DNA of 64,000 nucleotides, taken from positions 1 through 64,000 of the forward strand of contig NZ_JAMSLR010000003.1 in NCBI RefSeq assembly GCF_023806485.1, given 5' to 3'. This document shows, in pieces, positions 1-3,472 of this stretch. Under the pieces are notes generated by a model. It was not told the origin of the DNA. It was given only the letters and a program-made list of their open reading frames with translations, and searched no databases. The DNA comes from Thermalbibacter longus (GTDB lineage Bacteria > Chloroflexota > Chloroflexia > Thermomicrobiales > Thermomicrobiaceae). Position numbers and translations under genes: made by a program. Position 1 is the stretch's first letter; every line of letters starts with the position of its first letter.

Positions 1-2
1 TC

Positions 3-900
3 GTTTCGACAGTACCTATGAGGGCTTGAAACGGGCGTCTCGGTCGCGTCGAGGACGATCACGACGGGTTTCGACAGTACCTATGAGGGCTTGAAACCGC
101 TTCCACGGGCATCCGAAGGTCTGGGGGCGCGGCTGTTTCGACAGTACCTATGAGGGCTTGAAACTCGCAGCTCGAAAACGGCCGGAGAGAACCATCCCTG
201 GAGTTTCGACAGTACCTATGAGGGCTTGAAACTGGCGATCTTGGTGAGCGTGTGGTAGGCTGGAGTCGCGTTTCGACAGTACCTATGAGGGCTTGAAACA
301 AGGAACGGGCCGGACGTCTTTCCGGAAGGTTTGCCCGTTTCGACAGTACCTATGAGGGCTTGAAACTTTTGAAGCATTCCTGGTCAGCGACTTATCGAAA
401 GACGTTTCGACAGTACCTATGAGGGCTTGAAACGGGCGTGGTCGTTAGCCAGAGCCGGTACACGTCCTTGTTTCGACAGTACCTATGAGGGCTTGAAACT
501 CGAATGCGCCGATCGGCGGCGCAGGGAAACTGGACGGTTTCGACAGTACCTATGAGGGCTTGAAACCCGATGCCGCTCGGGCTCGGGATTGACCCGGCGA
601 CGTTTCGACAGTACCTATGAGGGCTTGAAACTGTCGACCCGCTCGCCGAGACGCGCGCGAGGAATCGTGTTTCGACAGTACCTATGAGGGCTTGAAACGG
701 CCGTCCCGTCGCCCAGCCGCTGGCCGCCGATCACCGGTTTCGACAGTACCTATGAGGGCTTGAATCCTACCCACTCACACAAAGGTACGAATATGTCAGC
801 AGGTTTCGACCGCACCTATGAGGGCTTGAAACTCGATCCTGCAAGTACTGCTCAAACATTGCTAGATCGGGTTTCGACAGTACCTATGAAGGCTTGAAAC
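3..900 (+). CRISPR. CRISPR array, distal part (14 repeats)
   Basis: Fourteen copies of a 30-bp repeat that begins GTTTCGACAG and ends GGGCTTGAAAC start at 3, 68, 135, 203, 270, 337, 404, 470, 537, 602, 669, 737, 803 and 871. Spacers are 35-38 bp and all different. The first eleven repeats are identical. The last three carry substitutions (A to T near the end of the copy at 737, two changes in the copy at 803, one in the copy at 871). The 3' end TTGAAAC resembles the 5' handle of type I/III crRNAs, and repeat decay at the right end marks the leader-distal side. The array is therefore probably transcribed left to right, with leader and cas genes left of the window. The subtype cannot be set without cas genes. 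Confidence 0.98.
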
Positions 901-938
901 AACATGATGAAGGATGGGAACCATTGGGATCCGACTCT

Positions 939-1099
939 GTTTCGGCAGGACGGTGGAGGGCGTGGAGCTGACGAGGGAGACGGTTGCATCCAGCGCGAGT
1001 GGGGTTTCGCGAGTTCTCAGCAGGGCCCGTAACGCCGCCGTTCCAACCGTGAAAAGGGGCTGGCCATCGGTAGCGATCGTACCGATGCGGTCGTACAAC
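939..1099 (+). repeat. Decayed CRISPR repeats in register with the array
   Basis: Three strongly degenerated repeat copies continue the array past its last clear repeat. They lie at 939-968 (21 of 30 positions match the consensus), 1004-1033 (20 of 30) and 1070-1099 (20 of 30). Steps are 68, 65 and 66 bp, the same period as the intact array. Conserved blocks include GTTTCG at the start and AGGGC or AAC at the end. A further, weaker candidate (about 14 of 30) falls at 1137. The intervening 35-38 bp would be fossil spacers. Small reading frames across this stretch are judged spurious. Confidence 0.75.
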
Positions 1100-1286
1100 C
1101 TCTTGCGCCGCTCGGAAGGTCGGACACTGCGCGATCTGTTCGACGGTCTCTGATCGGCCGGCAGTGGGCGTGGGCGGCACGCGGGTCTGCGTTGGCGCGG
1201 CTGGCACAGGCGAACCTCAGACCCTGGCATGTGCGGTCTATCAGTCGGACGGTAGCAGCTCGTGCGCCGCTGAGGTGAGGTGCGTT

Positions 1287-1832
1287 GTGAGTGAGAAGAA
1301 TGCGTCAGTACCTCCGGTCAGCGTCTTCGCGGTTCTCGCAATCGTTTGCGGTCTTACGTTGTGGTGTGGAATCGATCCCATGCTCTTCGGGGCGCCGTCG
1401 CCGTTGACGTTCGTTGGCTTGGGTCTGATCGTGACCGGTGTCCTTGGTTGGAGACTCGCAGATCTGCGCGTTTGGGTGCGGTGGCTTATCGGTGTCTTGT
1501 GGTGTTCCTTCGGTCTCGGAGTGTTAATGCTTACCTATGCTGGTGAGTTAGCCGAATTATCCGTGCTCTCCTTGGTGCTCGCGGTCGTCTGGATCGTGCT
1601 TGGAGGACTTGTCTTCATCGGTCACGCAAAGGTGTTCTGGCTCGCGGTGATTTGGGCAGCACTGTCTCTAGGGGGTTCGGGAATCGCGCTGCTCGCGGGC
1701 GACCCTGAACGACTGGCGTCTGCGATGTATCGGTCTTTGATGCATGCTGCCGTCCTTCTCGGTTTGGTGTACAGTCGGCGAACGTTTGCGCGGACGTCGC
1801 CTGCACGTCCTTCTGAGCCCCCGAACCCATAG
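1287..1832 (+). CDS. Small multi-pass membrane protein, unknown function
   Basis: This encodes 181 residues with about six hydrophobic segments that fill most of the protein after a short polar N-terminus (VSEKNASVPP). It is predicted to sit in the cytoplasmic membrane. The reading frame is open further upstream, but the GTG at 1287 is preceded by GAGGTGAGG at 1272-1280 at good spacing, so that start is preferred. The C-terminus is basic and proline rich. No family is recognised. It stands alone between the CRISPR tail and a long gene-free stretch, with no visible operon partner. Confidence 0.6.
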   Translation: MSEKNASVPPVSVFAVLAIVCGLTLWCGIDPMLFGAPSPLTFVGLGLIVTGVLGWRLADLRVWVRWLIGVLWCSFGLGVLMLTYAGELAELSVLSLVLAVVWIVLGGLVFIGHAKVFWLAVIWAALSLGGSGIALLAGDPERLASAMYRSLMHAAVLLGLVYSRRTFARTSPARPSEPPNP

Positions 1833-2460
1833 TCGAGTGTGGTACGAGCAGCATTGATGTTTCGGTTTCGGCCAGTACTAGCAGTTCGCTCCATAGCCTT
1901 AGCCGAAATGCCGAGCTGCTCGGTTCGATAGAAACTGTGGCGCGTTGAGAGTGGGAAGTTTCTGGTTCACTGCATTTGCGATGTCAAGGGACTGCCTTCC
2001 CACTACTGACCTCGTCTACACCCTGCCCGCCGCTACCCGCTGCACTGTCGCACAGGAGTGCGGTCATCCTCTGACCCGGAAGCGGGCGGTGGTTGCTCGG
2101 CGCTTGACCTGCTCAATCTGCCCGGCTCGCGGCGTACACTGGCGTCACCGTACCGCCTCGCTCGCCGTCGCCTCGCTCATGAGCCCGGCCGTGATGGCTC
2201 CCGCCGTGGTTTGTGTCCTCTTGAGCCAAGAGAGGAGGTCTAGCCCTTGTCCCGTTTCTCGTTTTCGGTCGGCTTCTGAGCGAAGCCGTCACTGAGGTTA
2301 TCGCTCTGAACGCGTAGTGATCAGGATCTGGGGCGTGTCGCGGACTCGGGCGAGCGACGCACCTCGCGCGCCGGCATAGTCAAGCGTCTACCGAGAGTGC
2401 TATACTCTGCCTACGGGCCTCACGACGACAGCCTCGCTCGTGGCGAGTTCGTGGGTGCGC
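1833..2460. other. Gene-poor stretch with inverted repeats
   Basis: No convincing gene is seen in these 628 bases. Short reading frames have no ribosome binding site or recognisable family. Two structures stand out. One is a perfect 9-bp inverted repeat, AGTGGGAAG at 1950-1958 against CTTCCCACT at 1996-2004. The other is a compact hairpin, CGGCTTC/GAAGCCG, at 2270-2288. The base composition is less GC-rich around 1850-2000 than in the neighbouring genes. Confidence 0.5.
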
Positions 2461-2544
2461 GGAGAGGTGGCCGAGTGGTTGAAGGCGGCTGTCTTGAAAA
2501 CAGCAGGGCGATGAGCCCCGGGGGTTCGAATCCCTCCCTCTCCG
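2461..2544 (+). tRNA. tRNA-Ser(UGA)
   Basis: The acceptor stem GGAGAGG pairs with CCTCTCC at 2537-2543, followed by discriminator G. The anticodon loop CTTGAAA gives anticodon TGA, which reads UCA serine codons. There is a long variable arm typical of tRNA-Ser and a GGTTCGAATCC T-loop. CCA is not encoded. It is 17 bases upstream of a second tRNA-Ser. Confidence 0.95.
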
Positions 2545-2561
2545 CCGCGGTGGCCCAGCAC

Positions 2562-2654
2562 GGGAAGGTGCCTGAGAGGTCGAAAGGGGTCGCCTGCTAA
2601 GCGATTGGGGCTGGCGTAAACCGGCCCCCGTGGGTTCGAATCCCACCCTTCCCG
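2562..2654 (+). tRNA. tRNA-Ser(GCU)
   Basis: The acceptor stem GGGAAGG pairs with CCTTCCC at 2647-2653, followed by discriminator G. The anticodon loop CTGCTAA gives anticodon GCT, which reads AGC and AGU. There is a long variable arm and a GGGTTCGAATCCC T-arm. CCA is not encoded. It is probably co-transcribed with the preceding tRNA-Ser and ended by the hairpin at 2701. Confidence 0.95.
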
Positions 2655-2700
2655 CCCTCGATGCCCCACCGTGCCCGTGGGGCGCAATCCTGAGAAGGAC

Positions 2701-2740
2701 TCCCCCGCCAGCGATACTGCCAGCGGGGGAGATACCTTTT
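2701..2740 (+). terminator. Probable terminator of the tRNA-Ser pair
   Basis: The 8-bp stem TCCCCCGC (2701-2708) / GCGGGGGA (2723-2730) is followed by GATACCTTTTC, a short T-run. It sits 46 bases after the second tRNA on the same strand. Confidence 0.65.
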
Positions 2741-2938
2741 CTGGCCTGCCCTGCGTCGCGACTCTCCCGCTCCGGATCACGCAACGCCGCTGGCCTACGC
2801 TCACGCTCCGGTCGCGCGGAGTCCTGTCGAGGCTCCTGAGCAGCCAGCCGCGCCGTGAAGCGCCCCCTCGCGCTGGGTTTGAGCCCAGGCGCGGTGCCGG
2901 CTGGCAGCGGAACTCGCCGCGCCACTCCTCGTGCTGGC

Positions 2939-3472
2939 CTAGCGTCCCCTGGGCGCCTGCGCGCGGTCGACCCAGCACTCCGAGCACTCGTACGACACGA
3001 ACTCGAGCCAGCCCCGGATCTCCTCCGGATCCAGCAGCCGGTGTGCCTCGTCTGCTAAATCCACCTCGTAGACCGTGCCGGTGCGGTCGGCAATGACCAC
3101 TCCGGCCAGCGGGCGGCCGTCGCTCGCCGCCAGGCCGTAGCGCTCGTGGATCTCCACGTCGTCGGCCAACGCTACCGGGAACGGCAATGTCGCCAGGTTG
3201 CCCAGCGCCACCTCCGGCCCGAGCGGCAGCACCGCCACGACCTCCCCGGCCTCGGCGCGGATCGCCTCGATCCGCTCGGCGATCGCCCGGAGGTAGTCCT
3301 GGCAGGCCGCGCAGGGCCAGCGGTGAGTGAAGACCAGCGCCAGGATCCGCCGCAGGTAGTAGCGCCGCGTGCTGACTGTCTCACCGTCGGCTGCCGGTGC
3401 CGTGAAGTCCGGGATCCGGTCGCCACGCTCGATAGGCGGTCGCCTCCGCGTGCCGGTCGGCGTGCTGCTCAT
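2939..3472 (-). CDS. Redoxin (AhpC/TSA-like, thioredoxin fold)
   Basis: This encodes a 177-residue cytosolic protein without signal peptide. The N-terminal GDRIPDFTAPAADGE is typical of peroxiredoxin/TlpA-type redoxins. The redox motif is HRWPCAACQDYL, a CxxC about 55 residues in, so it is an ordinary cysteine version, unlike the two UGA-containing redoxins later in this window. A start at 3472 is supported by GAGGAG upstream. The likely role is thiol-dependent peroxide reduction or disulfide exchange; the substrate is not predictable. A second cysteine pair (ECSEC) near the C-terminus could act in resolving or metal binding. Confidence 0.75.
   Translation of the reverse strand: MSSTPTGTRRRPPIERGDRIPDFTAPAADGETVSTRRYYLRRILALVFTHRWPCAACQDYLRAIAERIEAIRAEAGEVVAVLPLGPEVALGNLATLPFPVALADDVEIHERYGLAASDGRPLAGVVIADRTGTVYEVDLADEAHRLLDPEEIRGWLEFVSYECSECWVDRAQAPRGR

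Follow-up and report, generated by a model that had tools for sequence, protein, structure and literature searches.

Because a CRISPR array gains its new units at the leader, the trailer end holds the oldest ones, and these are not renewed. Decay of the repeats at this end and past it has been described before. The CRISPRDetect description allows that repeats past the array end may degenerate unrecognised, and the program can extend arrays at low identity (identity threshold 67% by default, adjustable to as low as 35%) for the study of CRISPR decay (PMC4869251). In CRISPR1 of Streptococcus agalactiae, the trailer-end repeat is given as 50-70% identical to the typical repeat, kept across strains and lineage-specific (PMC4466440), and in Escherichia and Salmonella arrays the terminal repeat is reported to be nearly always degenerate at its 3' end (PMC2886076). 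Studies of trailer-end 'anchor' spacers describe these as conserved and spacer deletion as a result of repeat misalignment (PMC6617893, PMC8047081, PMC11472070), and the SpacerPlacer study proposes that a mutated last repeat misaligns less and is deleted less (PMC11472070).

The locus analysed here is a clear and well-supported example of such decay, with good controls. Its decayed repeats, at 67-70% identity, sit at the default threshold stated for CRISPRDetect (PMC4869251); in contrast to that approach, we assessed the significance of the phase against genomic nulls and leader controls and followed the tail across species. Whereas S. agalactiae CRISPR1 is described with one terminal repeat, decayed mainly at the 3' end (PMC4466440), the window holds three or more units decayed over their whole length. 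Likewise, the Escherichia and Salmonella cases as reported concern a single unit with a 3' bias (PMC2886076), while the tail studied here is multi-unit and without significant positional bias. Old trailer units persist here as in the 'anchor' spacer studies, where mutated repeats are, in one proposal, less often involved in deletion, but the comparisons in those studies are of recognisable spacers and the window units have decayed past ordinary recognition. Our literature search found nothing specific on multi-unit tails in Thermomicrobiaceae. New here are the phase-anchored test with leader-side controls and the multi-unit tails at orthologous loci.

The window, that is, the whole stretch of 64,000 nucleotides that was analysed, covers positions 1-64000 of contig C23 of genome G000 (assembly of 3.63 Mb in 80 contigs). 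The contig begins partway through a CRISPR array whose repeat is 30 nt long, and the array's own leader lies off the contig. Perfect repeats start at 3, 68, 135, 203, 270, 337, 404, 470, 537, 602, and 669, and are followed by the features listed in Table 1.

Table 1. Layout of the window array, its decayed tail and the downstream flank.
Feature	Positions	Strand	Detail
Visible CRISPR array	3..698	+	11 perfect repeats (30/30)
Clear repeat, 1 mismatch	737..766	+	29/30
Clear repeat, 2 mismatches	803..832	+	28/30
Last clear repeat, 1 mismatch	871..900	+	29/30
Spacer between last clear repeat and decayed repeat 1	901..938	+	38 nt
Decayed repeat 1	939..968	+	21/30, step 68
Decayed spacer between decayed repeats 1 and 2	969..1003	+	35 nt
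Decayed repeat 2	1004..1033	+	20/30, step 65
Decayed spacer between decayed repeats 2 and 3	1034..1069	+	36 nt
Decayed repeat 3	1070..1099	+	20/30, step 66
Possible fourth decayed repeat, uncertain	1137..1166	+	1137 placed by eye
Flank in common with G003's orthologous array	1272..1848	+	77% identical
Small putative membrane-protein ORF in the flank	1287-1832	 	intact in the window

The original prediction had placed three fossil repeats with 20-21 of 30 matches at 939-1099, and these coordinates and counts proved exact: the repeats start at 939 (21/30), 1004 (20/30), and 1070 (20/30). The steps of the tail (68, 65, 66) continue the period of 65-68 within the clear array. Further in-phase units add only 14/30 (fourth) and 10/30 (fifth) in the phase-chain test, so the recognisable window tail amounts to three units, with a possible fourth near 1137. 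The last clear repeats had also been described as progressively mutated and the decay as gradual. They are indeed mutated, with 1, 2, and 1 mismatches, and decay has taken place, but neither is progressive or gradual in this array: the match counts are stepped, running 29, 28, 29 and then 21, 20, 20, with a jump to nine mismatches at 939.

The array G000 C1, which has the same repeat, adjoins a cas6b-8b-5-3-4-1-2 operon (PADLOC matches), and on these cas genes we assign the repeat shared by the window array to a predicted type I-B CRISPR-Cas system. The repeat ends in TTGAAAC, which we take to be a I-B type handle. In G000 C1 the cas operon ends some 200 bases ahead of the first repeat, on the opposite side from the mutated repeats. 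The window tail would thus lie on the leader-distal side, as judged from the TTGAAAC end, the clustering of mutated repeats, and the lack of tails at all ten leader ends surveyed.

The three in-phase decayed repeats at 939-1099 were confirmed as a real observation. None of the 334,194 positions scored as background in the G000 genome (both strands) matched at 20/30 or more, the best being 19, and the gapped score of decayed repeat 1 was matched by 2.3 × 10−6 of background positions. In a chain test, in which three repeat matches anchored at steps of 63-72 were taken and their match counts summed, the best background chain from 331,156 anchors in the same genome scored 45 versus 61 in the window. 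The shuffled controls proposed in the original prediction did not reproduce the in-phase scores: none of 2,000 dinucleotide shuffles of 901-1400 reached 61 (best chain 43, mean 34.3). Its central claim of decayed CRISPR repeats beyond the array end is supported; they lie at the leader-distal end, with gaps of spacer size between them.

Of 61 genomes from the order, 8 carry the repeat. Our survey comprised 12 trailer ends from six Thermomicrobiaceae genomes, arrays ending at contig edges being excluded, and 10 leader ends; G014 and G018 hold the repeat and lie outside the survey, and G017, with 573 repeat matches, contributed one surveyed array, its leader lying outside the leader set. As the phase statistic, we added up the gapped scores at the first three places in phase and compared the sum with 138,010 null anchors. 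Eight of the 12 trailer ends (G000 C23, G000 C1, G003 C49, G003 C21, G002 C15, G013 a, G015, and G017 a) beat all null anchors, while none of the 10 leader ends did, the best being reached by 21,542 of the 138,010. The trailer ends of G002 C24 and C42 were weak, each being reached by 2,417 null anchors, and that of G000 C7 gave no tail signal by this statistic. G013 b failed the statistic because an insertion of about 240 bases between the array and its decayed repeats breaks the phase. A simpler measure, which asked for any match of 20/30 or better in the first 1 kb, a level reached at most once in 426,568 background positions, again gave 8 of 12 trailer ends versus 0 of 10 leader ends. The two sets differ, as G013 b is picked only by the 1-kb match and G003 C21 only by phase. 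The tail of the window is therefore not unique, and most of the surveyed trailer ends in Thermomicrobiaceae carry one: the tail repeats are real, in phase, found on the trailer side only, and recurrent in related arrays. The grading is smoother at other ends, for example G000 C1 (29, 29, 28, 28, 25, 20), and the signal of G015 comes mostly from one 26/30 repeat with an altered 3' end.

Several of these loci show additional features. In G017 (L050 1969-2866), several hundred repeat-free bases separate the decayed repeats at +63, +140, and +208 from well-kept repeats at +796 (27/30), +865, and +932; the middle part of this tail may represent inserted DNA. In G013 a (L047 8246-8773), an ORF with a CxGGxGRTG motif lies between the decayed repeats at +266 and +905 and scores below threshold against a DSP/PTP phosphatase domain (PF22784, 26.7 bits at a cut-off of 27). 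In G013 b (L048 14517-14759), an 80-aa ORF without a convincing Pfam match separates the last clear repeat from the decayed ones. A lone inverted copy of the repeat is found in G015 (C1:659560; L046 ~2561-2590), some 500 bases ahead of the array's first repeat, and in G002 C42 (L039) what appears by eye to be the C-terminal end of a protein directly follows the last repeat.

Grouping by downstream genes revealed four sets of orthologous loci: {G000 C23, G003 C49, G002 C24}, {G000 C1, G002 C42, G003 C21}, {G000 C7, G002 C15}, and {G013 b, G015}. In G003, a Thermomicrobiaceae metagenome assembly, the array orthologous to that of the window is on CALKCJ010000049.1, where the clear repeats end at 838 and in-phase decayed repeats follow at 903, 969, and 1037. 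The membrane-protein ORF in the shared flank had no Pfam match; its G003 counterpart (L035 ~1125-1663) is 70% identical and has, by eye, an in-frame stop near L035 1374. A scan of the named genomes returned only the contig of G003 itself. The two tails align poorly. The G003 tail is also decayed, and its spacers are not clearly homologous to those of the window. Homology between G000 and G003 may reach left to about 1168, through a would-be decayed spacer (P ~0.002, picked post hoc). Among many spacer pairs tested, window 969 with G003 933 (P 0.023) and window 1168 with G003 1002 (P 0.001) are suggestive of orthology of single decayed spacers. A pairing of the window repeat at 939 with that of G003 at 969, whose first 13 bases match, was rejected, as only two changes are shared, which is too few, and 939 aligns best with G003 903. 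The presence of a tail is common to G000 and G003, while unit-by-unit identity is not established.

Very probably, 939-1099 represents the oldest leader-distal type I-B units of the array, which have lost constraint and drifted by point mutation. Since new units would enter only at the leader, the trailer units would be the oldest and would never have been renewed, and their spacers are probably obsolete. A repeat that has diverged too far would drop out of misalignment between repeats and thus be neither deleted nor homogenised, leaving a frozen remnant while the clear array turns over. The SpacerPlacer proposal on mutated last repeats (PMC11472070) agrees with this. The step from 29/30 to 21/30 could then arise if the in-between units were removed by misalignment among still-similar repeats and the diverged ones spared. 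We infer the cause of the tail's persistence, its age and its lack of function.

The composition of the repeats is consistent with this account. The three decayed repeats of the window carry 18 AT-to-GC versus 4 GC-to-AT changes, and their G+C content has risen from 14/30 in the intact repeat to 21, 18, and 17/30, in a genome of 68% G+C. Mismatch positions showed no significant concentration among 13 decayed repeats (permutation P = 0.11), a pattern that the selection for at least 20/30 biases toward changes that are still recognisable. The shift toward the genomic G+C content and the unbiased positions are consistent with unconstrained neutral drift. Several points speak against the decay account. 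Identity falls from 29/30 to 21/30 in a single step, which implies either deletion of intermediate units or a stepwise change in constraint; the three window repeats differ at about a third of their positions yet contain no indel, which is slightly tidy for neutral decay; and 4 of the 12 trailer ends (G000 C7, G013 b, G002 C24, and G002 C42) are within the null by phase. The selection bias just noted and the lack of established spacer-level orthology with G003 also weigh against it.

It is very unlikely that the decayed repeats are functional, for example as a CreA-like RNA (a small RNA, crRNA-like or antitoxin-like, that carries pseudo-repeats) or as a terminator or insulator of the array transcript. 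The first six repeat bases are unchanged in two of the three window repeats and decayed tails occur at orthologous loci of other species, both in favour of a function, but outside the repeats the tails of G000 and G003 have no recognisable conservation next to a flank that is 77% identical, the mismatches lack a significant positional pattern, and the extent of decay differs in every array surveyed. In addition, an Rfam scan of positions 1-3000 of the window returned nothing besides two tRNAs. We give hardly any credence to a tail made of a second, older array with a related but distinct repeat that was joined to the current one. The abrupt 29/30 to 21/30 step would suit such a junction; however, the spacing is in phase with the current array, and pairwise comparison of the three decayed repeats (18, 16, and 14 of 30 matches, at most two shared derived bases) reveals no common alternative repeat, and on this comparison the origin was rejected. 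That the units are coincidental similarities picked for their nearness to the array is next to impossible: single matches of 17-19/30 do exist in background DNA (37 of the 334,194 positions of the G000 genome at 17/30 or more), but the background positions and chains and the shuffles presented above rule out a chance origin, and the pattern is repeated at other trailer ends and at none of the leader ends.

With the tail read as drifted trailer units, its age can be approached only roughly. The pooled divergence of the three decayed repeats is 29 of 90 sites, or 0.42 substitutions per site (95% range 0.27-0.64), and the split between G000 and G003 corresponds to 0.24-0.80 per lineage at four-fold sites of four nearby genes, depending on the gene. 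As these ranges overlap, the tail would be about as old as the species split, and no finer date is obtainable. The dating of spacer loss envisaged in the original prediction is impractical with divergence ranges this wide. The old spacers it hoped to recover are readable; a phage-match search of the decayed spacers found nothing, but as the spacers of the intact array were also matchless, the search says nothing on the recovery of old spacers. The tail alone gives neither usable ancient spacers nor dates.

More speculatively, and on balance doubtfully, decayed multi-unit tails could be a standing feature of Thermomicrobiaceae loci: recombination-inert, kept at one chromosomal position in the different species since about the time of their separation, anchoring the array, protecting its last spacers from deletion, and collecting small genes. 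Because real decayed units follow most of the surveyed trailer ends, ordinary tools probably report arrays in Thermomicrobiaceae as too short and place their trailer ends too early. If the finding is general, phase-anchored scoring would add several units to CRISPR histories, and it would become possible to test directly whether diverged repeats leave the process of spacer deletion.
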